Shown here piece after piece: positions 5,513-27,112 of a stretch of 46,174 nucleotides of DNA; position 1 is the stretch's first letter; the number at the start of each line of letters is the position of its first letter. Under the pieces are notes generated by a model. The model searched no databases and was not told the DNA's origin. It saw nothing but the letters and a program-made list of their open reading frames with translations. The stretch is from positions 1-46,174 of the forward strand of contig CASFHD010000007.1 in the NCBI GenBank assembly GCA_949294455.1. The letters run 5' to 3'. A program made the position numbers and the translations under genes. This DNA is from an uncultured Christensenella sp. Its GTDB lineage: Bacteria > Bacillota > Clostridia > Christensenellales > UBA1242.

Positions 5513-7477
5513 TTATTTTGTTGTAGTATCCTCTTTTTTCAACATATAAAAGATATCTGAATTTAATAAAAAATCTAATTGTAACTCTTCTAGTGTTTTA
5601 GCATAGCTAGGATCTCGTTTTTTCATATTATCATAAAATTTTTTACTCGTCTCAAAAGCTCTTTCAAGAGCTTCCATTCGTTCTCTTTTTGTATCTTCAT
5701 CATAGTCTGTTGTTTCCAACCATTTTCTATAATCATCAAATCTTTGTTTTTTCAAAATCTTTACATCTACAGTATTTTTTATTGATGAAATTAATTCTGG
5801 AATTTTTTCAGTATTAACTTCTTTTAAAAGATCTTCTCCTTTTGAAATAGAGTCAACATATTTTTCATAAAGCTCTCGTTTCAAATCATTATAATTATCA
5901 TCATTCAATCTATTAGCGGACAAAATTTCTATTAATTTATTTTTATTCTCAACTGTTAAGCAATTTTTTAATTCTGATTTTTGGGATTGTAATACATTTT
6001 TTTGATCTTGAGTAAGATTTTCATTTTTTAATTCTGTATCAATACCTTTTATTCTTGAAGAAATAACATTATTTAAATCTTTTAAATAAATCTTTTCAAA
6101 AAGTTTATTAGATATTTCATCAACTGTACTTTGTTTTATTTCACCATCTTCTTTTGTCAAATCATAACCTAGTTCTAAAATATCTATAAACTGTGTTGCT
6201 GACAACGTAAAATCTTGACTCATTTTTAAAAATATTTTTTTCTTTAATTTATTAACATTTGAAATTTCGGATTCATTAGGTATACCAGCAGTACTAATAA
6301 TTTCACTAAATTTTTTTTCGACGCGATTAAACAAATTATTTATATCTTTCACTGAATAATTTTGGCTCTGTAAAATTTCAATAATATTTTTCATTCCTTG
6401 AATTTTATTTTCCAATAAACTTTTGTGCGACGAACCAGCCTCAATTCTCTCAGTAAATGATTGTATATGAGTGTTATATTTCTTGATTTTGCGAAGTATC
6501 AAATCATTAAATACTTTTTGTCTTTCTTCAAAAACAATTTTTCTTTTCTTTGTTTTTTCTTCTATTATATCTATTTTATATTGTTCATTTTCTGCTCTAT
6601 TGTTAGAATTTACAATCCTCTCCAACAAAGATACATTTTTAATCATAATACTTGACAATTTATCATATAGTTGCTTTGTTTTTCCACTACAAAATAGATT
6701 TTGACATTCACTTGCTGTTAAGTTTATCTTATTAATAATTTTGCCTTTTTTATCATAAAAGTTACCATTTTCATATATTGAACCTTTTGGTAACAAACTT
6801 AAAATTATTCCTGGTAAATTTTTTTCTAAATAAATATTTTTTTCAGAAAATTTTAATAAAGAAGAAATATCCAATTTCCTTAATTTGTAATCTATCACTT
6901 GCTTTCCTAGTTCATCATTTTCTAAAATAGTCTTTAAATTTTCTTTACACTCAGTAACTTTATCTTGATAATAACTATTATATTCTTTTGTTAATTTTTC
7001 AATAATTTGTGATTGTTCTTTATTATTTGTTTGCATTTTCTTATTATCATTATTCTCTTTTTTAAAATCGTTAATAAAATCGATAAATTTTTCATTTTTA
7101 GCGTTTAATCCAACTTTAAAAATTTTTTCACTTAATTTATTCACATTTTTAAATTCTATATAACCCAAATATGCCAATAATAATGAAAATATAGAGTTTT
7201 TAGAATTAGAGTAGAGTTCAGAATACAATTCATTTATAAAATTATTTCTAACCTTGGTAGTCTTAAATTTAATCTCTGAAAAATCATTAGAGAATGTAAT
7301 ATCTTTATAATTATAAATTTTCCTTTCAATTATTTCAACGCTTTTTTTGTTAACCTCAAGTGTACTAAAAACATTTTTTAGATTAATTTTATTCGTAGAT
7401 TCTTTATTATTACCGAATACTTCGAATAAATATTTACTAAAAACTTTTTTTAAATTCGATTTATCAATAACATCCAT
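5513..7477 (-). CDS. Large charged helical protein of unknown function
   Basis: 654 residues beginning MDVIDKSNLKK; not recognised. The ATG at 7477 is preferred to the one at 7492 because GGAGG lies 8 nt before it, inside the longer reading. Composition is dominated by Lys, Glu, Asn, Ile and Leu with long amphipathic helices. Coiled-coil-like parts are around 135-180 and 280-350. No signal peptide, membrane helix or catalytic motif is visible. It is comparable in size and style to the 735-aa neighbour (cytoplasmic, helical, Asn/Lys-rich), but I see no clear sequence similarity between them. It ends at its own terminator, so it is monocistronic. Confidence 0.85.
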   Translation of the reverse strand: MDVIDKSNLKKVFSKYLFEVFGNNKESTNKINLKNVFSTLEVNKKSVEIIERKIYNYKDITFSNDFSEIKFKTTKVRNNFINELYSELYSNSKNSIFSLLLAYLGYIEFKNVNKLSEKIFKVGLNAKNEKFIDFINDFKKENNDNKKMQTNNKEQSQIIEKLTKEYNSYYQDKVTECKENLKTILENDELGKQVIDYKLRKLDISSLLKFSEKNIYLEKNLPGIILSLLPKGSIYENGNFYDKKGKIINKINLTASECQNLFCSGKTKQLYDKLSSIMIKNVSLLERIVNSNNRAENEQYKIDIIEEKTKKRKIVFEERQKVFNDLILRKIKKYNTHIQSFTERIEAGSSHKSLLENKIQGMKNIIEILQSQNYSVKDINNLFNRVEKKFSEIISTAGIPNESEISNVNKLKKKIFLKMSQDFTLSATQFIDILELGYDLTKEDGEIKQSTVDEISNKLFEKIYLKDLNNVISSRIKGIDTELKNENLTQDQKNVLQSQKSELKNCLTVENKNKLIEILSANRLNDDNYNDLKRELYEKYVDSISKGEDLLKEVNTEKIPELISSIKNTVDVKILKKQRFDDYRKWLETTDYDEDTKRERMEALERAFETSKKFYDNMKKRDPSYAKTLEELQLDFLLNSDIFYMLKKEDTTTK

Positions 7478-7580
7478 AATTAATTCCTCCATTTTTCGTA
7501 GTTTAACACAATTTATAACATTTTAGAAACAAATAAATGAATTTTTTAAAAAATTGATAAAATTTTGACGAATGTGCGTA

Positions 7581-7609
7581 TTGACAAAAATTGTAAAATT
7601 TGTTAAAAT
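7581..7609 (+). promoter_or_regulatory. Promoter of the GNAT/mTERF-like island
   Basis: TTGACA (7581-7586), a 17-nt spacer and TAAAAT (7604-7609) preceded by TGT, so it is an extended -10. It lies about 33 bp upstream of the ATG at 7642 and drives the only plus-strand genes in the left quarter of the window. Confidence 0.85.
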
Positions 7610-7641: not shown

Positions 7642-8271
7642 ATGGAAAATTTAGTTTTTAGGAAAATTAAAAAAGAAGATTACATTGACATTAAAAATAA
7701 CATTTACACAGATATGGATTTAGAAGAAGTTAAAAACATCTGTATTGATTTTGAAAATCAAATGGAACAAGGTTCTAATTGGTATTATTTCTGCGTTGAA
7801 TTAGACGGTAAAGTTGAAGGAATAATAATTTTAGAACAAGATGAAAGAGAATCTATGCAACATTTAGGTAACATTTATACTATAGTAGTATCTGCTGAAA
7901 AAAGACAGCAACATTTAGCTCAATATATGCTTGAAAATGTTGATAAAATTGCAAAAGATTTAGGTATAAAAATATTAAAATGTGAGTGTATCAAGGACAC
8001 ACCTGCTGACAATTTGTTTAAAAATAACGATTTTAAAGTTTATGGCGAATTGAATAATGCACTTATTGAAGATGGAAGTTGTTATGATTTAGTTTTATAT
8101 GCAAAAACCATAGACGAAATTTTGCCAAACGCAAAAGAAAAATCAGATGAGCTAATCGATGATGATTATTTAGATACTGATGAAAATGAGGAAATAATTT
8201 TATCTGACGAAAATAATAACGAATCTGAAAATAATACTGAAGACTTAATAGATAAAATAAGTAATGCTTAG
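7642..8271 (+). CDS. GNAT-family N-acetyltransferase with acidic tail
   Basis: 209 residues; likely an acetyl-CoA-dependent acyltransferase of unknown substrate. The start is ATG 7642, with AAGGAG 4 nt upstream. Residues 1-150 follow the GNAT plan: the beta strand YFCVELDGKVEGIIIL, then IYTIVVSAEKRQQHLAQYML, which occupies the place of the acetyl-CoA loop and helix. The usual Arg-x-x-Gly-x-Gly/Ala loop is degenerate here (RQQHLA), so CoA binding may be altered. Residues about 160-209 form a very acidic Asp/Glu/Asn tail, perhaps for electrostatic interaction. It is transcribed from the 7581 promoter and lies 126 bp upstream of the mTERF-like genes with no terminator between, so co-transcription is plausible. 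Confidence 0.8.
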   Translation: MENLVFRKIKKEDYIDIKNNIYTDMDLEEVKNICIDFENQMEQGSNWYYFCVELDGKVEGIIILEQDERESMQHLGNIYTIVVSAEKRQQHLAQYMLENVDKIAKDLGIKILKCECIKDTPADNLFKNNDFKVYGELNNALIEDGSCYDLVLYAKTIDEILPNAKEKSDELIDDDYLDTDENEEIILSDENNNESENNTEDLIDKISNA

Positions 8272-8397: not shown

Positions 8398-9498
8398 ATG
8401 GAAAAAGAAATGATTAAAAAAATATCAGAAAATCCTACTGAAGAAAATGATATTATTAAAAAAGATTTTTATACAAAAACATTTGATTTGTCAGAAAATG
8501 AATATTATAAAATAAAAGAATCATACCCATATATTTTAGGATTAGTTGAAAAAACTATATTAGAAAAGATAGAATTTTATAAAAAAACATTAAATTTAAA
8601 TCAAAAAGAATTCAATAGATTATTCAAAATATTTCCGACAATATTGGGTTATAGCAATCAAGGCATTTTGAAAAAAATCAGTTTTTACAAATCAAAATTT
8701 AATTTAACTCAAGAAGATTTTAGTAATATTTTAAAAAGATTTCCTGCAATTATAAGTTATAGTACTCAAAATATTTTAGAAAAAAATAAATTTTTTAACA
8801 ATTATTTAAATTTATCACAAACCGATTTCAACAGAATTATTAAATTGTTGCCTTCATTTTACAGTTACAAAAATGAAAGCATTTTAGAAAAAATTAATTT
8901 TTATTCAACTACTTTTGAATTAACTAAAGAAGATGTTATAAAGATTATTAAAGTGTTTCCTTCTATATTAAGTTATAATTCTCAAAACATTATAGATAAA
9001 GTTCAATTTTATATGAATTTATTTAATTTATCAAAAAAAGAATTCAATGATATGTTCAAAAAACTACCATCACTTTTGGGTCTAAGCGAACAAAGCATAA
9101 AAAATAAATATGAATGCTTTTTAGATATAGGACTTCCAATTGAATGTATAATCAAAAATCCTAGAATTTTAGCAGCACCATTAAAAACGCTAAAATTAAA
9201 ATATATGTTATTTTCAATAGTCGATAATGATAAAAAGTTTTTATCAATAAACTGGGCAGTATCTTCATTTGAAAAATCTTGGGCTAGATATATATACCTA
9301 TCTGAACATTGTACAAAAATAAAACCTAGTTGGATAATTTTATCAGAAAGTGATTTTCAAAAAAAATATAAAATATCAAGTGATGAACTAATGAAAAAAC
9401 ATCCGATTGATAAAAGTGTTACAGATTTTATTATTAGTAAATTTAATTCTCTTGCCGATACGAATGGAAGTAAAGCATTAGATTTACACAATTTATAA
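8398..9498 (+). CDS. mTERF-like helical repeat protein
   Basis: 366 residues built from six consecutive 36-residue repeats (about 24-239) plus a seventh partial unit (about 240-270). A typical unit reads FYKxxxNLxxxEFxxIxKxFPxIL, then YSxQxILxKI. Each unit has a conserved Pro, a Leu/Ile 3 residues later and Ile/Leu another 7 later (P80, L83 and I90 in unit 2). This is the spacing described for mTERF motifs (Pro 8, Leu 11, Leu 18, Leu 25). mTERF proteins form a left-handed helical superhelix and bind nucleic acid in mitochondria and plastids, so a nucleic-acid-binding role is inferred. The C-terminal 100 residues (with KSWARYIYLSEH) are not repeats. Start ATG 8398 follows AAGGA. There is no signal peptide. 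The next gene carries the same motif. Confidence 0.75.
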   Translation: MEKEMIKKISENPTEENDIIKKDFYTKTFDLSENEYYKIKESYPYILGLVEKTILEKIEFYKKTLNLNQKEFNRLFKIFPTILGYSNQGILKKISFYKSKFNLTQEDFSNILKRFPAIISYSTQNILEKNKFFNNYLNLSQTDFNRIIKLLPSFYSYKNESILEKINFYSTTFELTKEDVIKIIKVFPSILSYNSQNIIDKVQFYMNLFNLSKKEFNDMFKKLPSLLGLSEQSIKNKYECFLDIGLPIECIIKNPRILAAPLKTLKLKYMLFSIVDNDKKFLSINWAVSSFEKSWARYIYLSEHCTKIKPSWIILSESDFQKKYKISSDELMKKHPIDKSVTDFIISKFNSLADTNGSKALDLHNL

Positions 9499-9516
9499 TA
9501 TAATAGGAAGTGATTA

Positions 9517-9810
9517 ATGGAAAAAGCATTAGAAAAATTTTTATTAAATTTGAATTTAACTAGCTATGAAATTGAAGATATAAAAAATATAACTCCTGCT
9601 TATGAATACTTGTCATTGTGTGATGTTAAATCAATTATTAAAGTGTTAGAAATTTATGGTTTTCCAAAAAGTGATATTCCAGAACTAATTTATTTAAATC
9701 CAAATATTTTAGTTTTAGATAAGCAAACTCTTATTGAAAAATTAAATACTTTAAAAGCAAATAATATTGATATTGAAAATTATTTAAAAAATAATCCTTT
9801 TGATATATAA
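9517..9810 (+). CDS. Small mTERF-like protein, partner of the upstream gene
   Basis: 97 residues. The second half (YGFPKSDIPELIYLNPNIL, then LIEKLNTLKANNID) has the exact mTERF pattern P62, L65, L72, L79. The N-terminal half is helical with a weaker copy. The ATG has AGGAAGTG upstream and lies 18 bp after the previous stop, so the two mTERF-like genes form an operon that closes at the terminator 9831-9856. It may be a partner or regulator of the long protein, or the remnant of a longer repeat protein. No stop-interrupted continuation was noticed. Confidence 0.7.
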   Translation: MEKALEKFLLNLNLTSYEIEDIKNITPAYEYLSLCDVKSIIKVLEIYGFPKSDIPELIYLNPNILVLDKQTLIEKLNTLKANNIDIENYLKNNPFDI

Positions 9811-9830
9811 ATCACTTAACCATGTTATAG

Positions 9831-9856
9831 AAAAAACAGCGAATGCTGTTTTTTTT
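9831..9856. terminator. Bidirectional terminator between the mTERF-like operon and cmk
   Basis: Perfect stem AAAAAACAGC (9831-9840) / GCTGTTTTTT (9845-9854) with loop GAAT. U-tracts form on both strands, so it can end the plus-strand island and the convergent cmk transcript. Confidence 0.9.
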
Positions 9857-9934
9857 GTTTTTAAAATTCAATACATTTTTTAGTTTGTTTTTACAAATTA
9901 TTCTTTATATTAAATAATTTATTTTTTTAATCAG

Positions 9935-13294: not shown

Positions 13295-16200
13295 TTATAC
13301 TCGGTTTTTATAAGATGAATATCTCTTTTCACTCTTATCCTTACGCTTTTTAAAGATAATTATAATTATCAAAATAATTATTATGATTAACAAGATTATC
13401 AATAGTATTATCCACCACTGGAAGAAAGTTCTATTAATAACTATTGCTAGATATTGTAAATCTTGTAAATCTTCTGAAGATATAACTAGATACTGACCGC
13501 CGTCATAATTCTCGTAAGAATAGTCTAATTGAATTCCATCATTAGAACTATTTATAACATTAAACACGAATCTTACATCATCTTCAGGTCGTGGCAAATA
13601 AATTTTAAATCCATTTGTTCCTATTGAATCAAAAGATGTTATTTGTTCTCCCAAATTATTCAAGATGGCGATTGTATATGCTTTTTCAAACACAAGTCTG
13701 CCACTTATAACAGATGAAACTTTACCATAAACAATATTATAATTGTCATCAGTTGGCTGAAGTTCTTTTAACACCAAAGTTAGACCTGGATTGAAATACC
13801 CTCCATTAGTCGTTTTTATGAACAAACCAGAATCCTTATCATAAAGCGTATCTGTAAAAATCAACTGAGTTGGAATATTAGGATTTGCAAAACCCATAAA
13901 TTGAACATTCAAATCAAAATTTCCAATTTCTGTGTTGTCATTACCTTTAATCATAACGCCGTCTGTTGTGAATGACACTATCTTCCTATCTTGCAATGAA
14001 CTACTTAAAACATTTTCAGATGTTGCGAAATAGAAATTCATTTTGTCTAAATTAATATAGATTTTTTCTTGTAATCCATTTAAGATAAATTCTACCATCA
14101 TTCCTTTAAATTCAACACCATCAGTTAAAGTTATATTCTGCATAACCGCAGTTCCACTCAAATCAGTGTAAACATAAGAGCCAAAGAACAAGTTATTGTT
14201 TAATACACTTGCACTGCTGTCGTTAGGATTATAAATTTTATAGTTACTTAAAACATTATTTAAATATAAATTTAATTTTAATTTTGAAATATTTATACAC
14301 GACTTAACTACAATTTCACCATTTATGCCTGTGCTTTCAAGACCATTAGATAAGGTTTCAAAATCAATTCGATAATTATTGCTGTTTTCTCCGGTTAAAG
14401 CAACATTTGTAATCAACAAATCAAGATTTACACTTCCAACATTTTTGCCTGAAATTTTTGCAGTGGAAGTTGCAAAGTCAATGCTTACTTTACCTAAATC
14501 TTTAGAATATATTTCACCGTCATTTATGGCAATGAAATTCGATAATAAAACTTGCAAAGCGTTAGAATTTAAATTATCCGTTCCATCATAAGTTTTTGTG
14601 TATATATAGTTTAAATTTTTCAAACTTATTTTTTTAGGGACAATATTAAACTCTTTTGATAATTCAATATTTACCCCATTGATATAAACATCTATTCTGT
14701 AGTCTCCAACATCAATTACATTATCTATTTCAACAAATGTATTTTCTGAAGTCTTTTCATAATATTTATAACTTACGACTAAATTTGAAGTATCTATACC
14801 TAATTTTGATGTATCTACTCCTTGCATATCAGTGTTAATTTCACCTATATACTCAAATTCCACTAAATTGTTTGTAAAACTTATTTTGTCAGTCGCTATT
14901 TTTAAATATAGTTTAACTACTGAATTAGAAGTAATATTTTCAATAATTAGTGGCTCGTCTTTTATTAGACTTTGTTTTAAGCCATTGTTGAACACGAACG
15001 CGCTTATTTCAAAAGAAGAAGTATTTAATGTATTGATTGTAAGTTTATTTATTTTTCCGCTGTCATCTACATTTGATTCAATTAAATATACTCCATTTAT
15101 AAAATCAATATTTGTTACCTCTTGAGAATCATTCAAAGAATATGTTAAATGAATAATCTGACTGTTATGTAAAAATTCATTATAATCTTCAATTTCAACA
15201 GATATTGACACTGATCTTAATTTTAAATAGATATCAAAATGTATAACTGAATTATTTGTAGCAGAATCTAACTCAAAATATTCTTCTGTAATAGTTAAAG
15301 GGTTTAATATATTTTCTACTAAAATTAAATCATTTGAACTGCGCAACTGAATTTTGTCAATTTCATACTCAGATTTAATTACTTCAAATTGAATGTTTTG
15401 TAGAGTTTGTGACATTACATAACGCTCTAAAATAGGTATATTAGTTGTATTAATATAACTAGAAGTTAAATTATTTTCATTTAACCATACACCATTTACG
15501 TTTATTAATGTTTCATAATTTATTGAATCAATTCCGACTATTTGTCTTACATTTATATGTGTAACCAATTCAGATTTTGAAACTTTTACTAATAAATTTC
15601 TTACATCATCTAAGTTTGAAAGCGATAAATTAGATATAAATTCGCTGTCAATCAAAATTTCACTTTCAACTTGATATAAATTATTAATTAGTGTAGTGCT
15701 TTCATTATTTTGTGAAGATTTTACTGTTATATCACCAAATGAAATACCTTCAAATTTATAACCTTTTTCAAATAATGTATATAATTTAATTGTTTGATTA
15801 TTAAATACTGTAAAGGTCGCATTAGAACTTTGTATTGAACTATCCTTTATCGCATTTAAATAAATTATAGCATCATCATCTCCTGTTTGATTCGATGAAG
15901 TAAAGTTTAATGTATATGATTTATTTATAATATTTACAACAACATCTTGATTGTTTGTAATGTTATTTAATGTTAATGTATATTCAGTCTTATCCTGCGA
16001 CTGTGTATATGAAATAGGGGTTCCATTTACACTAACAGAATTTACAATTATACCTTGACAAGTGTTTATAACAATACTTGCATTACTGCCATATTCGGCT
16101 GTAAATGCCTCTGTTATCTCTGCTTTAGAAGGGTCAATGTCTGTAACTATCGCTAGAGCGTTGCTACTTTCACTTTTTAGACTAGTTGTAATATTGTATT

Positions 16201-19200
16201 TTATAATGTTTAAATCTAAATACAAATATACATTATTCAATCCATCTGCGTACTGAGAAATTAATAAATCAAAATTTTGACCTGAAAAATCAATAGTATA
16301 ATACTTATTTTCCAAATCTTGTGATGTGAATATATAAGTTTTATCAGTAAAATCAACTACATTTGAAATTAAAACTTCATTTATTTCATATCCATCATTC
16401 GCTAAAAATTTTAATGACTTATTATCTTGATATGATAATAACATACTATCTGAATTTGTATAAAATTCTCCGTTACTTTCAATGCTACCTACTGCTTCAT
16501 CATTAACCTCATCTATAACAAAATTTAAGGTATAAACTATAGGATCAAATACTAAAACATAAGTTGCATTAATATCTGTATAACTAAAATCTAGTGTATT
16601 ATTTAACAAATAATCTGAAGAAGTGTAAATGTTATTTTCTTTGTATTTTGCAATACCGACAAATCTAAATGCTTGTATATTTCCATTAACTACAAAGTTT
16701 ATTTTATCACCTATAGTAAATGCTTTAGTCAACTCTATAGTATTGGTTTCCCCGCTATAAAGTTTATTAATAGCAATATTTACGGTAAATTCGCTGATTT
16801 CTGTTATTGAAATTTCACCTAAAATATTTGTTGTAATATTGAAAATTCCTGTCAATGATTCAATTAATATATCATAATTCAATTGAAGACTGTTGTTAAA
16901 TTCAAAATTATAAGTGAACAAAACTTGGTCTTGATAATCAGTATCATTTGCTTTAATAGTGTAGATTGAACTGCCTATTCTTAATTTAATAGAATATGAT
17001 TGTGCTAAATCTAAATTATCAAATTTAACGTACAACGAATAACTTTCACCTAAAGTTGCAGTAAAGTTTGTACTATCAGTAAAATCAAAGTTTATACCGT
17101 CAAATCCAAATGTTGCTACTTTACTAGAGAACGCATCATTATCTACAAGTGTTGTAAATGTCAAATTATAATCTTTTAAACTAATTGTAGCAGTATATTC
17201 TATTTTATTAAATTCATCTGTTGAATCTTTTGGTAGATAAGTAAATGTCAATGTATAGTTATCTACTCGGTTAGAATTTACAATTTTAAAGTCATTTAAA
17301 ACAAATATTGTTCCATCAAATACAAATTCATCTAAAGTATATCCTTCAAACATATTGATAACTACGGTTATTTCATCTCCGATTTTTACACTAGAAGATG
17401 TTCCGCCATTTACAAATATTGAAATGTTATTTTCAGTTAAATTAGATAAATCATAATGATTTTTTTGTGAATTAGATTCATCAATTATTACACTTTCATC
17501 TAACTGCAAGTTATTTGAATTGTCTATAGAATAATTTATTTTTTCAAAAACGGCAACAAATACAATATTTTCATCATTTGGCACATAATCGCTTTCGTAA
17601 ACAAATGTATAAAATGCATTTGAACTTTCAATTATTCCGCTAGTTGCATTATATGAATATTTTACAAATCTGTACCCAACAGGAGTATTTAAAAGGGTCA
17701 AATTGACACTATCTCCTACTTTTATACTGCTAGAAGACAGGCTTATCACATCGTCTATTACAATATCATTTCCGTTATAGGAGATTAAATCATTACCCGC
17801 ATCATCTATTAATTCAACTGAAACATTGTAACCAATTTTTTCAAAATTTACTATGTATTCATTAGTGTCGTCAGTGTCTTTTGAAATGTTTTCTATTGTA
17901 TATATTTCATTATGCTCTTGCAAATCTACTAACGCACCTGCAAAATTTACAAAACGGTATATTTTCTTGCTATCCGAAGTTATAGACAAATTCAAACTTT
18001 CGCCATCTTTTACAAAAATTGAAGATTTCACTAAATTGAATTCGCCCAAAATGTCTGATTGCAAAATGTAATTTTCATTAGCATCTAATAAAGTATCTGA
18101 ATCTGCATCAACAAATTTAAAGTCAATTTTATGATATGTTGAAACTTCTAAATCAAGAACTATATTAGAATCTATTGTTATATTTTCTAATGTGTAAGTG
18201 TTTTGATAATAATTTTGTAATTGTTCGGTATTATAATCTTTTGTAAATGATATAATCTCATCTAATTTATATACATTATCTAGAGTTTTATAGCCTGTAA
18301 CATTATTTAACCTTATTGATATAACATCTGCGTAATGATATGTTTTTAAATCATTTATATAAGAAGAACTATCTTCAATATTCGAATTTAACTTGTATGA
18401 TATTTCAAAACTATTAGACAATTCACCATTTTCTAGTATTTCTACTGTATATTCAATGTACTTAAATATAACTTTTACAACAGTATCTTTAGAAATAGTA
18501 AAATTATAAATATTGTCTGAATAAATTGTTCCATCTATTTCATATCCATAGAAATACACTCGTTTGTTTGCATTTTCAAGTAAATTATATTCTATTGAAA
18601 CATTTGTCCCCACATATAAGTATTCAACAGATGTGTCAAAATTTACTTCTGTATTATTTGTAACATTTGTAATTTTTAAATCAATTTCATCTAAATGAGT
18701 ATCATTTTCAATATTTTCTATTGTCTTTATAACACTTAAACTATACATTCCACTATATTTAACATATAAGTTTAAATCATCTGTTGTATTATTATTCAAG
18801 TCATCAAATAGTTCAATCGCTATAGGATTTTGTGTATCTGAATTTTTATATAAATTTTCAAAATTTTCATCAGTGTACAATCCTAAATAATCAAATACAA
18901 CACCATCTATAGACAAATTAGTTTTTGTTACATTAGCTTCTACGCTTGAGCCTAAATTACTATTAATGAAAGTTACAAATCTTGCAATATTAGGATAAAT
19001 TTCTTTATTGTCAAAAGTATTCTCTAAGTATTCAATAGATACAAGATTTTCTTGCAAAGCGTTAGATAACTCTACTATTGATTTAGCTTCATCGTAATAA
19101 ATGTTTAAAATATATTCATTTTTTACGTAACTGATAATAATTGTAGAATCTGATTCAAGGGTAAATGTAAATTTAATATACTTTAATCCTTTTGAATCGG

Positions 19201-22200
19201 TATTAAACTCTATTACCTTATCAGAATTAATATCAATTGTTTCATTAGATATAGTTGACTTAATTTCAATACTACCAATGCTATTATAATTATCTGCAGT
19301 TATTATAACATTAATTTCACTTTGATAATCCAAATAATTGTCCGTACTAAAATCTAGTTCTACATTATCATAAATGTCGTTATTAACACTAATAAAACTA
19401 TTACCACTGCCGTTACCTAAACTATCTAGGGTTATTAAAAATCTTTCAACTTCATTTACATAAACTTGCAAACTGTAAATACCTTCTGAATTGTTTACGT
19501 AATTTAAAATTTCTTCACCTAAAGTTACTCTTAAAATTTTATTAGCAATATTTTCCAAAGCATTTTCATTACATAATTTATAGATATTTAAACTATCAAA
19601 CAAATAATAATTTACAAATCTAACAGTATCAAAATCATTTATTTGCTGTAATACAAATTCTTCACCAATATATACGACACTCTTATCTACTCGGTTTGCA
19701 AGCGTAGAACTAGCAGTATAATTTGAATTATTTGTAGATAACTCAATTGCTATTTTTTCTACCTCGAAATTGAATTCATCACCTAAACTAGAACTATAAC
19801 TATCTATTAAATAATTTGAATTATCATAATCTAAATTGTTAAATTTAGAAATTTTATAGCCTGGATTCAAAGATAATGAAATTTCAAGTTTATCATAAGG
19901 CAAAATATCTAATTCAAGCACCTTTTCGTAACCGTTTATAAGATATTCAAAATTGTAAATTGAATTATTTAATTTTATATTAATTTGAGCGTAATTATAG
20001 TCAGATGGTAATAAATTGTAAAATTCATTAGAAATCAAATTTGATGAAATATTGATTTTTGTACTAACACCCGTTAACTCAAAAATAACTTTAAAGTTTT
20101 CTCCAGAATACTCAATTAAATTGTAAATATCTTGAAGAGTAATTGATAAATTATTAGTATTCTCTGCCACTAAATTATAACTATCTCCACTACCTTTATA
20201 AACTCTAATATTAACAATAAAGTCTTGTAATTTAGATTGTTTTATAACATAATTAGCAGTCAATACATCACCAAAATAATATTGTCCTTCAACCCTTTGA
20301 CCATCAACATTTCCGTTTGAAATTTCGAAATTTATACTTTCAAATAATTCATTCAAAAGACTTCCATCATTATTTATAGTATCAATGTCTATTTCGCCTA
20401 AACTCGAATAAATAGTGTTTGTGAATCTAGCACTAAAATCAACATTATATGATTTTATATTTGCAACAGGTTGTATTCTTAAATAATCATCAATAAAACC
20501 ATCACTATCCGCATCAACATTTACACTTATAGAGACAGGAGAAGTAGCATTTAAAATAGTTTTATCTAAGTCAGGTGAATAATTTAAACCATCATTAGAG
20601 CCCAACACATTTATTTGAGTCTCAGTATTATTGTAAGCATCAGAAATAATAAAATCGTATTTTATATTAGAATTTTGACCTTTATAAAAATATTGAAGAT
20701 CATCTTTTATGAATCCATTAGTAATTGACTGATTAGTTACAGAATTTTGATACAATTCATCAAAGTCAACGATGACTGTTTTAGCAATATTTATAACAAT
20801 CGTTAACATTCTATCATCTTCAGAAACTGCTTTAATTCCATTCAAATATTCAGGCTTAGTTTCATAAATATAATTTAAAGCATTGTTGTCAATCGCAGTA
20901 AGTGATAGGTTTTGTTGTCCCGATAGTTTAATTCCATATTGAGTTAAATTATTAGTATCAGCAATTAAATTAGACCTATATATAGCCGAATTAGATTCAC
21001 CACCAAAATCATAAAAATTCCAATTTAATACCATATAATTATCAAAATCAGTGCCATTTCTTTTTGCCATCGTCAGCATAAAATACGGAGCATTATCAAC
21101 TTGAAAATGATTAGAATTTTCAAATACCTGATTCATATTTGATAGAAATGAAATCGTTAAAATATCATCAATTTTGATTAGATCATCTCCGTCCAACAAA
21201 TAAACTTCATATATTTTTAAATCTTCATTATAGACGGCGGAATAAATTTCGTTTGTATAACTATCTACAATTTTAAAATCAATTATAAAATCAATTTTAG
21301 AAATATTCGCTTTAATGCAACCCAAATAATCAGAGCTGTCTTCTTGAGTGTGTTCAACTACCTCGCCTATTAACCCCAAATAAAAGTAATCTAAGAAATA
21401 TTTGTTTACATTAATTACCAACTTGTAACCAGATGAGTAGTTTGAATTTTGATAAAGTTCAAATACCCTTTCGCCATTATAAGTTAAGAAATGTACAATA
21501 TCTTCTCCTACTACTTCTTGACCTTGAGAGAAATTATTCCAAACGACATCATCTACATCAATGCTTAAATCAGTGAACAATGTAATTAAATAATCTTTAA
21601 AATTATGTGAATAACTGTCAAGTTGATAACCAATTCGAATAATGTATTGTAATTCTAGTTTATCGCCTAACGACAAAAAGTTAGTATAATTCGATTGAAT
21701 AAGCCCATCATTAGAAATTGATAAATCATCTGAAAAATTATATGAATAGTAATTAATTATAAATTGCTCAGAAGCATTCAACCCCTCTAAAGACTCTAAA
21801 TCTACAGCGTATTCAATCAAACTATATACAATTTCATCAGTTGTATAATCAGATATAACTACATTTTCCCCACTATCTAAAACATCTATAACTTTTTCTG
21901 TTTCTAATTCAAAACCCAAATAATTTCTATAATCATTATAACCAAATGGATTTTGAACTGATTTTAATTCATCATAAATTTCATCTTGACTAAAAATTTG
22001 TATTTGATATTCGCTGTCAGACAACAGATTAATTTTAATATTATAACTAAAGCCTGCTAAATTTTCAGCACTTATACTAGGAGTTGAAGAAGTAATAAAT
22101 TCATCACTTCCAAAGGTCAAAGAAAACTTAATAAAATCAGCAAGACTTGCATTTGAATAAGGTATTGCTTGAAATTCAATTACATCAGGATTAGTGTATG

Positions 22201-25200
22201 AAACATTATAAGCATACATTAATTGACTTGATTCAAAATCATACCAAAAATAAATTGTATAAACACCCTGATTTATTCTAGTTTTTTCAGAATAATTAAT
22301 AACATCATTTGAATTAGCAAGGTACGAATTAGTATTAGTATTTACAACGATTTTTCCTGAAGTTTTATTTGCAATAGGCAGTGTCAAAGTGTATTCATTT
22401 CTCTGCCAAATAGCATACAATGAAATAGCATTTTCTCCATTATTAGAAAGCCCAAACAGCCATTCAAAGTACAATGGCAAATCAGTTTCTGTTGCAAATT
22501 CATTTCTATTTAAATCACTGTAATTATCATTAAACCCTAAGAAAGTGTAATAACTTTGACTTTGATTTTTCACGCTAAAAGCATTTGATTTCAAATAATC
22601 ATTTAGTTCTTCATTGTATCTAAAATAAGTAAAATAATTAAATGTATATTGAGAATTTTCTGCAAAATTTTCATTTCTAAACAATTGTTCTGTAATTTTT
22701 CTTTTGTCTAAAATTCCATCATTTACAGATTGCTTAACGCTGTAATAAAGCACCCCACTAACGAACTCGCTATCATTTGAATTGTAATTTTCATTATCAT
22801 AATAATTTGATATAAAGTTTTGATAACCCGTTCTATCTAAAGTTGCTTTTGCAAGTTTATAAACTACATCATATTCAGTTTTATCCGTAATTTTAAAATT
22901 GTTTACGCTTAAAAGGAAATTTTGATTATTCAAATCATTTAGTCTAGAAGTCAAATTAATACTATCAATATAAACCTTGAAAAAGTTTCCTAGGTATTGC
23001 ATATAAAGATTTTCTAAATCCCAATATGCACCATTTTCATAAGAAATATTATTAAAATTAGAATAATTGTAATTGCTAGTTGAATAGAAATAATTGACAT
23101 TTTCTTGACCGCTAACAGATTCATTTAAACTATTAAAATTTATGAAATAAGGACTATATCTGTAATTTTTAAAGTTGTAATTGTAAAGCGAAATAGCATT
23201 ATCGCCAACATTTAAAGTTTTTGATATAAATTTCCCATTGTTATCAATAGACAAATTGTCGCCATTTGCTAAATAATCATCAATATTTTTGTAATAATCA
23301 GAGTTATGCACTAAATATAGATTAATTTTAGCCTGATTTCTTTGCCAAGAAAGGTATAATTTGTCCACAACATTACCATTTAAGAACAATAAAGACGAAT
23401 TAAATTCACTTGACCAAGTATCAAACGAAAACTGATTTGAATCATAACAATTAATAACATTTTCCCCATTTTTCGTCTGTGAAAAACCAGTTTGAATAAA
23501 TGTGTAAACCGAATTTTCAACAGCGGTAAAATTATAAGCATAATTTGCACTACCAGTGTTTACCAATTCAAAATCTGAATTGTATTTAAATAAGAAATAA
23601 TAATTTCCATTAACATCTTGTTGAATATTGCCAAACTCATCTGAATGTGAATTAATAATATTATATTCGCCATTTTCATCACTTGACCAAGTCCAAACGC
23701 TAACGCCACTAGTCAAATCCGATAAATTTCCAACTGAAATGCTAGAGACTATTACTTGTCCACCATACACACTACTAGGTGTATTTGTGTCAATATTAAC
23801 TCTGTAAATATTTCCATAATAATGAGCAAATAAATAAACGCTTGAATTTACGACTCCATTTTGCAAAACTACATTACTTTGAAAATTCGTAACATCTTGT
23901 GTGCTGTCTATTAAATCACTACCCGTTGCATATTTATACGCATAAAAAGTGTAAAAGTCAGCACTAGGTTCACTTTGTCCACCTGTCAAATAATCAGACA
24001 AGCCGAAACTTCCAAAATTATCTCCTGCAAAGCCAATTAGATTAACATCTTCTTGATTTTCGCTTGTACCCCAATGCGCATTGAGGTTAGGATAATTAAT
24101 ATTTCCATTATTCAAGTTCAAAATTAAAGTTTGTTGTTCAATAGCCCATAATGCAATAATAGTCTTGTTCCCTGTTGTATTTCTCAAATCAAAATTGATT
24201 AAATTTCCTAAATTTGAAACAAGTTTTTGTTCGCCACTAAAATTAAAGCCTATATTATAATATCTGTTGTTGTTAAAATCTAAATATGATTTATCTTGAT
24301 AAGAACTAGTTTTTATACTAAAATTAACTAAATTTTCATCACTAATAGCCGAATAAGTCAAAACCTGAATGGTATTTCCGCCCAAAGCAAAAGATAACTC
24401 AATCAAATTACCATTTCCATATCCAGATACGCCATTTACACTAACAGAAGATACATCTTGACCAAGTTTTTGTAAACTAGCACTTGAAATTTCAATATTA
24501 TAATTTCTAGCACAAACAGCATAAAGTTTTATAGGAGAATTAGTCGTGTCAAAATAATTTGTATCTCCCAAATTTAAAGACGAGATAATATAAGACCCTA
24601 AATATAAATTAGATTTATCTTGAAAATAATAAAAATAATTATTACCCGTAGCGATACTTGAGTAGTTTTGATAATTATTATAAGTTATGTTGTTAGGATC
24701 TATATAACTGACAGACCAGAGTCCACCAAAAACATATTTCCCACTATAAGTATTAACAGAATTTCCACCAAACTGTGAAGATAATATTGAAAAATTGCTG
24801 TCAATAGTAATTTTTTGTCCTAAATATTTAAAATAATTGTTAGTATTTTCAGGGTCGTTGTAAAGATAAAGGTCAAACTCTAATAAATTCCAATGAGCAT
24901 AAAGGGTGATAGAATCCCTTTCTCCCAAATCCCAAATCCAAGTAGTGCTAGTATTAGTATCAAAAGTATCTCCACCTGTTGGGTCATTCCACCAACCCAA
25001 GAAATTATAACCAGTTCTGTAAGTGTAAGGATAAGGCTGCGTTGACACATTTCCCGCTATTATAGGATTATCTTCGCCAAAGGTAACTTCTAAAGATGAT
25101 GGTGTGGTAGCGACTCCACCATTAGAGTCAAAATAGATAGTATAAGTTTTAGCAACCCAGTGAGCATAAATAGTAAGCGTATTAGTAGTTTCATCTAAAA

Positions 25201-27112
25201 AATTATATATATCATTTGACCAAACAATTTCATCATTAAACTTGTCAATATTAAAAACTAAATTGCCAAAATGATCGCCCCAATAATCAAAATTATAACC
25301 CAATTTAGTAATATCAACAATATCTGAATCCTCAGGGAATAATGCTTGTTTAGATGAACTAGTAGGATTTAATTGCGATTCAAATGTAACAGTTTGATAA
25401 CTCAAATCCGATTCAGGATTACCATCTGTTACAAAGTGTCCTTCATCATCTGCCCCCGTAGTAGTAATATCAGTATAAATAACAACATTGACTAATTCAA
25501 TAAAATACTGATTTAAAGTATCCACTCTTATTACATTTTCTCCAGAATATGTATTTCCTGCCAAGACATGAGTAAATAAATCATCATACTCCAATATAAA
25601 GGTAAACCCATTTTCGCTAACATCAGTGATTTTTGCATTGGCCACCTTTGTTACATTTATGTTATAAGCCGTTCCCACGTCAATTTTTATAGTTTCATTT
25701 AGTTTTACTTTTGTTAAATCAACACCATAAGAATTTAATGCTGTCAATTCAAATGAAACAGTATGATTCCCCACTTGCCAATTTGAAGGGAAAATAGGTT
25801 GTTCAGAAGATTTGACAACGTTAAATATTCTAGAATTGTCTATAGAACAATTCCTAGCAAAAGTAGTCCTACCGCCAACTTCAATCATATTTACGGAACC
25901 AAAACTGCCCTGACTAACCCCAATACCAGCTTCATTTCTTTCATAATATGTAGTACGATTATTATTATCATAAAAACTATAAAATACATTAAATGTATAA
26001 CTACCCACAACTTGATTATGAAGCACATAACTATTATACACTTGTCCAACAGAACTTATTTCAGTAGTCGAATTAATTGTTGCTGGATTATTAGTATTAT
26101 CTATTGTTATTTCTGGTCTAGGAACATCTTGAGTCAAAAGAACAACATGAATATTAATATAAAATTTTACATCTATTACAAAATTATCATAAACACAATT
26201 TTCAACATGACCTACATTTGAACCATAAATACTTCCCACGTGTATTTCATCGTATGTTGAAATATAATAAACACCCCAATATGATAATACTTGCCAATTA
26301 CCACCATTATATATTTCATCGTCATTATAAAATGAATGACTATAAATCAAACTGCCTTTTACACTTGCATTTTTTATTGTTCCATTATTAAGACCAGCAA
26401 TTCCACCCGCATACGCCCCTGTACCAAAAATATAACTATTATTACCTACTTGTATATTACCAGAAAAAGTGCAATTTTCAATAATTCCATAATTTTGTCC
26501 CGCAATTCCACCTGCGTATATTAAAATATCTTCTGCTTTGTCGTATCCATATCTACTAAAAGAATGGTCATATACTTCTCCTGTTGCCCAATCTTTATAT
26601 ATAGGGTCCAAGATCATATTCCCTTCAACATTTAAATCATATACAGCGCCAGTTTCACCTATAAATCCAAATAAACCAGCCCAGTAATTTACTACTGAAT
26701 TATTATTTTCACCAGCATTATTATATTGCATTGCTGCATAATTAATATTTGTAAAAGATATAGTATGCCCATTTCCATAAAATCTTCCATTAAATGGTCT
26801 GTTAATATTTCTACCAATACTATGACAGCCTTCACCTGTAAAAGCATTGCCTAAATCAATATCATTTAACAATACAAAAGTAGCATTATTAAAATTATCA
26901 TATTGTAATAAATTATCTTTTAAATCATCAGCAGTAGCTATATAAATTATGTCAGTACCACTGTCTGGTCCCTCAAAATCTTCACCATACGCATTAACAT
27001 TATCAATTTTAACAAAAAAACTTATACTAGGCATTATTACTGCTAATACAATTATACCAACTAACAGCATTAATTTATTTATTAATTTTTTATTCTTTTC
27101 ATTAATATTCAT
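13295..27112 (-). CDS. Giant secreted surface protein with GLUG, InlB B-repeat and YDG-type domains
   Basis: 4605 residues. A signal peptide with basic start and hydrophobic core (14-34) is probably cut after VNA (39-41). About 50-255 has GLUG-like units (YAGGIAGQNYGIIENCTFSG, YAGGIAGLNNGTIKN). About 575-745 has InlB B-repeats ending IYAHW / LYAHW. Most of the middle is divergent InlB/Flg_new-type beta repeats, recognisable by phrases such as YRFVKY. About 4160-4260 has a YDG-type adhesin domain (YTKTYDGTD). A single membrane helix (about 4563-4587) and a basic tail of about 18 residues end the protein. I saw no LPXTG motif, so the anchor is probably the transmembrane helix itself. The ATG has AGGGG 7 nt upstream. 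The likely role is adhesion or matrix contact (inference). Asn, Ser, Ile and Asp are abundant. Confidence 0.9.
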   Translation of the reverse strand: MNINEKNKKLINKLMLLVGIIVLAVIMPSISFFVKIDNVNAYGEDFEGPDSGTDIIYIATADDLKDNLLQYDNFNNATFVLLNDIDLGNAFTGEGCHSIGRNINRPFNGRFYGNGHTISFTNINYAAMQYNNAGENNNSVVNYWAGLFGFIGETGAVYDLNVEGNMILDPIYKDWATGEVYDHSFSRYGYDKAEDILIYAGGIAGQNYGIIENCTFSGNIQVGNNSYIFGTGAYAGGIAGLNNGTIKNASVKGSLIYSHSFYNDDEIYNGGNWQVLSYWGVYYISTYDEIHVGSIYGSNVGHVENCVYDNFVIDVKFYINIHVVLLTQDVPRPEITIDNTNNPATINSTTEISSVGQVYNSYVLHNQVVGSYTFNVFYSFYDNNNRTTYYERNEAGIGVSQGSFGSVNMIEVGGRTTFARNCSIDNSRIFNVVKSSEQPIFPSNWQVGNHTVSFELTALNSYGVDLTKVKLNETIKIDVGTAYNINVTKVANAKITDVSENGFTFILEYDDLFTHVLAGNTYSGENVIRVDTLNQYFIELVNVVIYTDITTTGADDEGHFVTDGNPESDLSYQTVTFESQLNPTSSSKQALFPEDSDIVDITKLGYNFDYWGDHFGNLVFNIDKFNDEIVWSNDIYNFLDETTNTLTIYAHWVAKTYTIYFDSNGGVATTPSSLEVTFGEDNPIIAGNVSTQPYPYTYRTGYNFLGWWNDPTGGDTFDTNTSTTWIWDLGERDSITLYAHWNLLEFDLYLYNDPENTNNYFKYLGQKITIDSNFSILSSQFGGNSVNTYSGKYVFGGLWSVSYIDPNNITYNNYQNYSSIATGNNYFYYFQDKSNLYLGSYIISSLNLGDTNYFDTTNSPIKLYAVCARNYNIEISSASLQKLGQDVSSVSVNGVSGYGNGNLIELSFALGGNTIQVLTYSAISDENLVNFSIKTSSYQDKSYLDFNNNRYYNIGFNFSGEQKLVSNLGNLINFDLRNTTGNKTIIALWAIEQQTLILNLNNGNINYPNLNAHWGTSENQEDVNLIGFAGDNFGSFGLSDYLTGGQSEPSADFYTFYAYKYATGSDLIDSTQDVTNFQSNVVLQNGVVNSSVYLFAHYYGNIYRVNIDTNTPSSVYGGQVIVSSISVGNLSDLTSGVSVWTWSSDENGEYNIINSHSDEFGNIQQDVNGNYYFLFKYNSDFELVNTGSANYAYNFTAVENSVYTFIQTGFSQTKNGENVINCYDSNQFSFDTWSSEFNSSLLFLNGNVVDKLYLSWQRNQAKINLYLVHNSDYYKNIDDYLANGDNLSIDNNGKFISKTLNVGDNAISLYNYNFKNYRYSPYFINFNSLNESVSGQENVNYFYSTSNYNYSNFNNISYENGAYWDLENLYMQYLGNFFKVYIDSINLTSRLNDLNNQNFLLSVNNFKITDKTEYDVVYKLAKATLDRTGYQNFISNYYDNENYNSNDSEFVSGVLYYSVKQSVNDGILDKRKITEQLFRNENFAENSQYTFNYFTYFRYNEELNDYLKSNAFSVKNQSQSYYTFLGFNDNYSDLNRNEFATETDLPLYFEWLFGLSNNGENAISLYAIWQRNEYTLTLPIANKTSGKIVVNTNTNSYLANSNDVINYSEKTRINQGVYTIYFWYDFESSQLMYAYNVSYTNPDVIEFQAIPYSNASLADFIKFSLTFGSDEFITSSTPSISAENLAGFSYNIKINLLSDSEYQIQIFSQDEIYDELKSVQNPFGYNDYRNYLGFELETEKVIDVLDSGENVVISDYTTDEIVYSLIEYAVDLESLEGLNASEQFIINYYSYNFSDDLSISNDGLIQSNYTNFLSLGDKLELQYIIRIGYQLDSYSHNFKDYLITLFTDLSIDVDDVVWNNFSQGQEVVGEDIVHFLTYNGERVFELYQNSNYSSGYKLVINVNKYFLDYFYLGLIGEVVEHTQEDSSDYLGCIKANISKIDFIIDFKIVDSYTNEIYSAVYNEDLKIYEVYLLDGDDLIKIDDILTISFLSNMNQVFENSNHFQVDNAPYFMLTMAKRNGTDFDNYMVLNWNFYDFGGESNSAIYRSNLIADTNNLTQYGIKLSGQQNLSLTAIDNNALNYIYETKPEYLNGIKAVSEDDRMLTIVINIAKTVIVDFDELYQNSVTNQSITNGFIKDDLQYFYKGQNSNIKYDFIISDAYNNTETQINVLGSNDGLNYSPDLDKTILNATSPVSISVNVDADSDGFIDDYLRIQPVANIKSYNVDFSARFTNTIYSSLGEIDIDTINNDGSLLNELFESINFEISNGNVDGQRVEGQYYFGDVLTANYVIKQSKLQDFIVNIRVYKGSGDSYNLVAENTNNLSITLQDIYNLIEYSGENFKVIFELTGVSTKINISSNLISNEFYNLLPSDYNYAQINIKLNNSIYNFEYLINGYEKVLELDILPYDKLEISLSLNPGYKISKFNNLDYDNSNYLIDSYSSSLGDEFNFEVEKIAIELSTNNSNYTASSTLANRVDKSVVYIGEEFVLQQINDFDTVRFVNYYLFDSLNIYKLCNENALENIANKILRVTLGEEILNYVNNSEGIYSLQVYVNEVERFLITLDSLGNGSGNSFISVNNDIYDNVELDFSTDNYLDYQSEINVIITADNYNSIGSIEIKSTISNETIDINSDKVIEFNTDSKGLKYIKFTFTLESDSTIIISYVKNEYILNIYYDEAKSIVELSNALQENLVSIEYLENTFDNKEIYPNIARFVTFINSNLGSSVEANVTKTNLSIDGVVFDYLGLYTDENFENLYKNSDTQNPIAIELFDDLNNNTTDDLNLYVKYSGMYSLSVIKTIENIENDTHLDEIDLKITNVTNNTEVNFDTSVEYLYVGTNVSIEYNLLENANKRVYFYGYEIDGTIYSDNIYNFTISKDTVVKVIFKYIEYTVEILENGELSNSFEISYKLNSNIEDSSSYINDLKTYHYADVISIRLNNVTGYKTLDNVYKLDEIISFTKDYNTEQLQNYYQNTYTLENITIDSNIVLDLEVSTYHKIDFKFVDADSDTLLDANENYILQSDILGEFNLVKSSIFVKDGESLNLSITSDSKKIYRFVNFAGALVDLQEHNEIYTIENISKDTDDTNEYIVNFEKIGYNVSVELIDDAGNDLISYNGNDIVIDDVISLSSSSIKVGDSVNLTLLNTPVGYRFVKYSYNATSGIIESSNAFYTFVYESDYVPNDENIVFVAVFEKINYSIDNSNNLQLDESVIIDESNSQKNHYDLSNLTENNISIFVNGGTSSSVKIGDEITVVINMFEGYTLDEFVFDGTIFVLNDFKIVNSNRVDNYTLTFTYLPKDSTDEFNKIEYTATISLKDYNLTFTTLVDNDAFSSKVATFGFDGINFDFTDSTNFTATLGESYSLYVKFDNLDLAQSYSIKLRIGSSIYTIKANDTDYQDQVLFTYNFEFNNSLQLNYDILIESLTGIFNITTNILGEISITEISEFTVNIAINKLYSGETNTIELTKAFTIGDKINFVVNGNIQAFRFVGIAKYKENNIYTSSDYLLNNTLDFSYTDINATYVLVFDPIVYTLNFVIDEVNDEAVGSIESNGEFYTNSDSMLLSYQDNKSLKFLANDGYEINEVLISNVVDFTDKTYIFTSQDLENKYYTIDFSGQNFDLLISQYADGLNNVYLYLDLNIIKYNITTSLKSESSNALAIVTDIDPSKAEITEAFTAEYGSNASIVINTCQGIIVNSVSVNGTPISYTQSQDKTEYTLTLNNITNNQDVVVNIINKSYTLNFTSSNQTGDDDAIIYLNAIKDSSIQSSNATFTVFNNQTIKLYTLFEKGYKFEGISFGDITVKSSQNNESTTLINNLYQVESEILIDSEFISNLSLSNLDDVRNLLVKVSKSELVTHINVRQIVGIDSINYETLINVNGVWLNENNLTSSYINTTNIPILERYVMSQTLQNIQFEVIKSEYEIDKIQLRSSNDLILVENILNPLTITEEYFELDSATNNSVIHFDIYLKLRSVSISVEIEDYNEFLHNSQIIHLTYSLNDSQEVTNIDFINGVYLIESNVDDSGKINKLTINTLNTSSFEISAFVFNNGLKQSLIKDEPLIIENITSNSVVKLYLKIATDKISFTNNLVEFEYIGEINTDMQGVDTSKLGIDTSNLVVSYKYYEKTSENTFVEIDNVIDVGDYRIDVYINGVNIELSKEFNIVPKKISLKNLNYIYTKTYDGTDNLNSNALQVLLSNFIAINDGEIYSKDLGKVSIDFATSTAKISGKNVGSVNLDLLITNVALTGENSNNYRIDFETLSNGLESTGINGEIVVKSCINISKLKLNLYLNNVLSNYKIYNPNDSSASVLNNNLFFGSYVYTDLSGTAVMQNITLTDGVEFKGMMVEFILNGLQEKIYINLDKMNFYFATSENVLSSSLQDRKIVSFTTDGVMIKGNDNTEIGNFDLNVQFMGFANPNIPTQLIFTDTLYDKDSGLFIKTTNGGYFNPGLTLVLKELQPTDDNYNIVYGKVSSVISGRLVFEKAYTIAILNNLGEQITSFDSIGTNGFKIYLPRPEDDVRFVFNVINSSNDGIQLDYSYENYDGGQYLVISSEDLQDLQYLAIVINRTFFQWWIILLIILLIIIIILIIIIIFKKRKDKSEKRYSSYKNRV

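Follow-up and report, generated by a model that had tools for sequence, protein, structure and literature searches.

A conserved pair of mTERF-type genes in small-genome gut Clostridia, encoding a putative modular DNA-binding protein and a small acidic partner

The window (the whole stretch of DNA that was analyzed, 46,174 nucleotides on contig C7) comes from a 1.13 Mb genome that is 98.8% complete. Among named genomes, its nearest relatives are MAGs that carry the labels uncultured Christensenella sp. and Clostridia bacterium. Two adjacent genes were found on the forward strand: 8398..9498 encodes a large protein of 366 aa (pI 9.2) and 9517..9810 encodes a small protein of 97 aa (pI 4.7), both open reading frames being present as the sequence-only reading had claimed. 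The 18 nt between the genes contain the motif aggaagt (9505..9511, +), which by direct reading of the sequence is the likely ribosome-binding site of the small gene. Behind the small gene, a hairpin with a T-run (9827..9858, +; fold -14.5 kcal/mol, z -4.3; absent from the consensus scan) is the likely intrinsic terminator closing the operon.

The pair had been described as standing in its own operon behind a GNAT gene. A GNAT acetyltransferase gene (7642..8271, +; PF00583, E=4.2e-7) does lie upstream in the same direction, and this order was kept in the congener (L045/L004) and not elsewhere. The best promoter-like site, however, precedes the GNAT gene (TTGACA-17-TAAAAT with TG, 7581..7609, +; 11/12 consensus matches), and it is weak because such sites were no more numerous in the region than in shuffled sequences. 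The upstream region could be aligned to that of the congener, and this alignment contained no clear conserved operator beyond drift. Downstream, on the opposite strand, is what we take from its sequence to be a cmk-like kinase gene. PADLOC found no defence system match for the pair or its two upstream neighbours, and PHROGs returned only a marginal match of unknown function (E=0.007).

Divergently oriented from the GNAT and mTERF genes is a gene (5513..7492, -) encoding a 659-aa protein that exceeded no Pfam or NCBIfam cut-off and had no PADLOC match; a shorter ORF of 527 aa occupied its place in the congener (L045, 2792-4375). Elsewhere in the window, an ORF of 4605 aa (13295..27112, -) begins with a signal-like stretch, shows on visual inspection many repeats resembling InlB/Listeria-Bacteroides types, and has a membrane segment at its C-terminus. 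It probably encodes a giant surface protein.

The large protein matched the Pfam mTERF profile PF02536 at E=5.3e-36 (124.6 bits, 101 bits above the 23.1 cut-off), well outside what chance would give. Its PDB matches in single-sequence phmmer searches belonged to the mTERF family only: MTERF1, MTERF3, Tetrahymena mS93 and, weakly, MTERF4. These matches bore out the mTERF identity proposed earlier, and a better match to HEAT or PPR repeats, which had been named as counting against it, did not occur in the sequence searches. No PPR or TALE family was present among the Pfam matches of the large protein to E=10, nor among the PDB sequence matches of the protein or of a profile of the C-terminal region. 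When ten relatives were scanned with PF02536, seven large proteins exceeded the cut-off, two small partners fell below it, and the divergent L089 was unmatched.

Six gap-free 36-residue mTERF repeats span residues 31-246 (8488..9135, +), as the earlier reading had counted them, according to the repeat alignment and the helices in the structure model. Each of the six units carries Pro at position 14, followed by hydrophobic residues at +3 (L/I/Y) and +10 (I in 6/6). The proposed Pro-Leu/Ile spacing thus held in outline; the residue at about +17 is mostly an aromatic Y/F rather than Leu/Ile. Following the repeats is a conserved C-terminal domain (9136..9495, +) containing R256 and K293, delimited by family alignment and by the profile match to MTERF1. 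When the bacterial C-terminal region was searched as a profile against the PDB, it matched MTERF1 (E=4.6e-16) and MTERF3 (E=2.4e-14), with MTERF4 at E 1e-6 or worse. The alignment to MTERF1 extended beyond the repeats into its non-repeat C-terminal domain, including the R387 position. By this alignment, R256 and K293 of the window protein correspond to the base-reading residues R350 and R387 of MTERF1. In the C-terminal family alignment K101, P119, and R161 were invariant and K157 (equivalent to K293 of the window protein) was near-invariant. Because the match runs on into the C-terminal domain of MTERF1, homology is indicated and convergence is argued against. Judged by these profiles, the large protein is an mTERF homologue and a true relative of the mitochondrial mTERFs, and an independent origin of the fold, one of the origins suggested for the pair, is disfavoured.

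The AlphaFold model of the large protein was only fair (pLDDT 69, pTM 0.49), so that its mTERF identity rested on sequence profiles. Most repeats were modelled as a helix, a short helix and a helix per 36 residues. The best Foldseek rows for this fair model were MTERF1 (probability 0.94) and MTERF3 (0.75), none of them at E<=0.001. A designed PPR topped a second structural comparison (Z 5.0), and this was not taken as membership of the PPR family, given the poor model and the lack of support in the sequence searches.

The small protein was identified as an acidic mTERF-fold partner from its family alignment, its model and its gene adjacency. Members of its family share a conserved C-terminal end, N/D-P-x-x-I/L. 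Against PF02536 it scored 21.9 bits (E=9e-5), just below the 23.1 cut-off. Its model had a pLDDT of 90.4 and contained eight helices over about 2.5-3 mTERF units; the protein is thus mTERF-like, as had been thought, and holds more than the one repeat first assigned to it. The top 18 PDB rows for this model were all mTERFs, with probabilities from 1.00 to 0.57 (row 19, 0.04), and the structural matches included MTERF4, MTERF3, and Tetrahymena mS93. With VIA-align, in the superposition proposed as a check, the model fitted MTERF1 (Z 11.8) and MTERF3 (Z 11.7; 1.9 A, 96 residues), followed by BurrH (Z 6.0). Comparison of the small-family and large-family profiles gave a probability of 94.8. The 97-aa protein is therefore modelled as a complete small mTERF fold. 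In total, the small protein was acidic in 28/28 pairs checked (pI 4.1-5.4, mean net charge -7), and its large partner was net positive in 22 of these pairs and not in the other six.

Among the fetched relatives, 33 of 35 distinct small genes lay directly behind a large mTERF gene, with a gap of -101 to +44 nt and often with overlap. Of the remaining two, one was cut by a contig end and one was unlinked in G238 (L088 and L062), where the small gene persists and the large gene has no adjacent partner. From the side of the large genes, 31 of 55 compared had an adjacent partner. Those without one included a clade located beside a glycerophosphodiester phosphodiesterase (GDPD)-like gene and a divergent group of 458-615 aa; fusion of the small domain to the C-terminus of the latter group was considered and set aside, profile support being weak (E 2e-6 to 1e-4). 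Within a single family of gut Clostridia with small genomes, the large and small mTERF genes are a conserved two-gene unit, and the small partner gene appears new to knowledge of bacterial mTERFs. The survey of related genomes that had been called for thus found the pair kept but the GNAT neighbour not shared across genera. No neighbour was shared by all mTERF loci compared across genera. Recurrent neighbours, presumably, from reading of their sequences, were lepA/GDPD and an amidase gene. Two loci (L092, 434-3337; L090, 5868-8546) encoded proteins of 892-967 aa with at least two mTERF C-terminal-domain matches per chain and a small gene behind each. Tandem duplicated large mTERF genes were observed at three loci: L072 (2393-5369), L050 (5314-8256), and L052 (1731-4060).

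The host family consists of uncultured Clostridia with genomes of about 1 Mb, in which mTERF presence was patchy. PF02536 was found in 59/309 genomes of the family (41/190 of high quality), which represent 16 of its 42 genera, and there were often multiple loci per genome; the host genome itself had no paralogue beyond the window locus. All nine PF02536 matches in an order sample of 396 genomes fell within the host family. A phylum sample of 398 genomes yielded five borderline matches, the best of which was rejected as an M3-type oligopeptidase by reading of its sequence. Across these two samples (396 and 398 genomes) no credible mTERF member occurred outside the host family, and searches of phages, plasmids and viral contigs yielded no relatives of the large protein. 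The narrow distribution of bacterial mTERFs appears new. Recurrent chromosomal sites common to several genera suggest that the copies are old and were passed on vertically, many having been lost.

The transcription terminator Rho was also highly divergent across the host family: only 1/309 genomes (G154, a lower-quality bin) exceeded the Rho cut-off, many others contained weak Rho-like ORFs of 360-490 aa, and the Rho-like ORF of the host genome (G000:C1:75093-76043) matched at E=1e-11. Replacement of Rho by mTERF was rejected, since Rho was divergent in genomes of the family with or without mTERF.

Repeat number and order differed between relatives. In the congener (G001) the flanking genes were kept and the large protein had two repeats, compared with six in the window protein. 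In three genomes of another genus (G088, G109, and G131) the first four repeats were near-identical and the later ones differed in number and order. Within nearly uniform arrays, variation was focused on a few repeat positions. The base-reading residues of human MTERF1 are R162, R202, R251, R350, and R387 (PMC4705650), and the PDB titles of deposited DNA complexes name substitutions of F243, Y288, and F322. Mapped by alignment onto the bacterial repeat unit, these residues fell at positions 12 (R162), 15 (R202, F243, R350), 18 (F322), and 23 (R251, Y288); R387 mapped to the near-invariant C-terminal Lys, K293 in the window protein. In 11 arrays, positions 12, 15, 18, and 23 varied more than random quartets drawn from all 36 positions (P=0.0025) and from polar positions only (P=0.0044), in a test whose positions were defined from MTERF1 and which was run on few arrays after the entropies had been seen. 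Other surface positions (4, 13, and 33) varied as much as the mapped contact positions. Three near-identical arrays (L080, L081, and L070) carried replacement differences and zero synonymous differences at positions 15, 18, and 19. Overall pN/pS within arrays was 0.3-0.6, which argues against general positive selection on the arrays. By alignment, the most variable repeat residues appear to coincide with the DNA-reading positions of MTERF1, a link that appears new. The pattern of variation supports a modular code while falling short of proof. A separate array at L082 (2521-4005) consisted of almost identical mTERF repeats of about 41 aa with an inserted loop, SENETSV; differences between these repeats clustered just before the Pro, just after the Pro, and at the pair of residues that follows P-x-L-L.

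The reading that we consider probable makes the large protein a sequence-specific DNA-binding regulator of modular build and the acidic mTERF-fold protein its cofactor. Like MTERF1, the large protein would wrap a specific DNA site by following its major groove. Each repeat would contact DNA through residues near the conserved Pro, at positions 12, 15, 18, and 23, and the conserved C-terminal Lys would act like R387 of MTERF1. Gain, loss and shuffling of repeats would retarget the protein, which may act on transcription at a few sites as a repressor or as a roadblock or terminator. From the gene pairing, the likeliest role of the acidic small protein is that of a cofactor docked on its large neighbour, where it could extend the superhelix or control access of DNA to the groove rather than bind DNA itself. 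A bolder form of this proposal, which we put forward tentatively and hold to be clearly less probable, is that bacterial mTERF arrays are code-like modular DNA readers in which Pro-adjacent residues set base preference and repeat turnover retargets the protein, the acidic mini-mTERF acting as a switch or cap.

The partner may instead be an antagonist that would obstruct the large protein's groove or imitate DNA and so make the pair self-limiting; this is a variant of the best explanation that differs in the sign of the partner. The consistent acidity of the small protein (28/28) beside a mostly basic large one, the tight and often overlapping coupling of the genes, and the persistence of the unlinked small gene in G238, whose large gene lacks an adjacent partner, all suit it. 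A positive cofactor fits these data equally, however, and we treat antagonism, with its conjectural groove docking, as possible and rather doubtful. An RNA-directed role, with binding of rRNA or mRNA in ribosome assembly or RNA stability (as for MTERF4 and mS93) and the small protein as a subunit, is in our judgement unlikely. It draws on the small partner's structural matches to MTERF4, MTERF3, and mS93 and the large protein's sequence match to mS93, and on relatives located beside genes read from their sequences as rplT/SpoU methyltransferase (L047), lepA (13 loci), and aspS. Against it, published relatives bind DNA with a Kd in the nanomolar range (PMC11417379), the profile prefers MTERF1 and MTERF3 (E~1e-15) over MTERF4 (1e-6 or worse), and patchy presence (59/309 genomes) is ill-suited to a core ribosome factor.

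mTERFs are broadly eukaryotic, and in the samples of the order (396 genomes) and phylum (398 genomes) they were confined to one bacterial family, which would suit genes without a settled role that had recently been acquired from a eukaryotic host or protist. Such a recent acquisition seems very unlikely to us, because the mTERF family is deep and diverse in the host family (16/42 genera), has recurrent chromosomal sites common to several genera, and has its own partner family. For the same reasons any transfer would be old, and the genes maintained since.

mTERFs were long regarded as organelle proteins of eukaryotes. The sequence-only reading likewise treated them as mainly organellar, a view that needs qualification because bacterial mTERFs have already been described as pTERF; the core discovery, that bacterial mTERFs bind specific DNA, is that of Hu et al. 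(2024; PMC11417379). There, pTERF1, from a ruminant-gut Clostridia MAG, is reported to bind ACTNNNAGTC sequence-specifically with a Kd of 1.87 nM. The paper also describes pTERF2, which enriches another motif, and lists more homologues: five in the same cluster, 14 from NCBI, and 27 from MGnify (PMC11417379). Its main text contains no mention of an operon, an adjacent gene, a downstream gene or genomic context (PMC11417379). Compared by published description, the window large protein is of pTERF type: both are built of tandem mTERF-like units (3-11 in pTERFs, six here), are encoded in MAGs of gut Clostridia/Bacillota and fall under Pfam mTERF. pTERF1 was judged in that paper to lack the classical Pro/Leu heptad spacing and, at 9-18% identity, to have no obvious similarity to eukaryotic mTERFs (PMC11417379), whereas the window protein has the Pro spacing and a strong mTERF profile match. 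It therefore strengthens the case for bacterial-eukaryotic homology, and the canonical spacing and common C-terminal domain tie the two groups beyond fold alone. Possibly the lack of the spacing in pTERF1 reflects repeats of about 41 aa in which an insert breaks it, as in some family members (L082).

Human MTERF1 (3MVA, 3N7Q) shares with the window protein the mTERF motifs, the C-terminal domain, and the correspondence of R350/R387 to R256/K293, but its units are interspersed and divergent whereas the window units are gap-free and nearly uniform. To our knowledge, MTERF1 has no encoded mini-mTERF partner. MTERF3 (3M66), the second-best profile match and a protein on which the small partner superposes, differs as a single-chain eukaryotic protein. 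MTERF4-NSUN4 is alike in that an mTERF protein works with a protein partner; NSUN4, however, is an RNA methyltransferase whereas the window partner has an mTERF fold, and the sequence match to MTERF4 is weaker. Such a conserved partner offers a concrete new handle on regulation. TALE/BurrH and PPR proteins resemble the bacterial arrays in outline, with modular repeats, a few variable positions and change in repeat number, but they are other repeat families without a sequence match, BurrH being a weak structural row (Z 6.0). As with TALEs, the way in which mTERF repeats read DNA could be studied more cleanly in the near-perfect bacterial repeats than in the human proteins.
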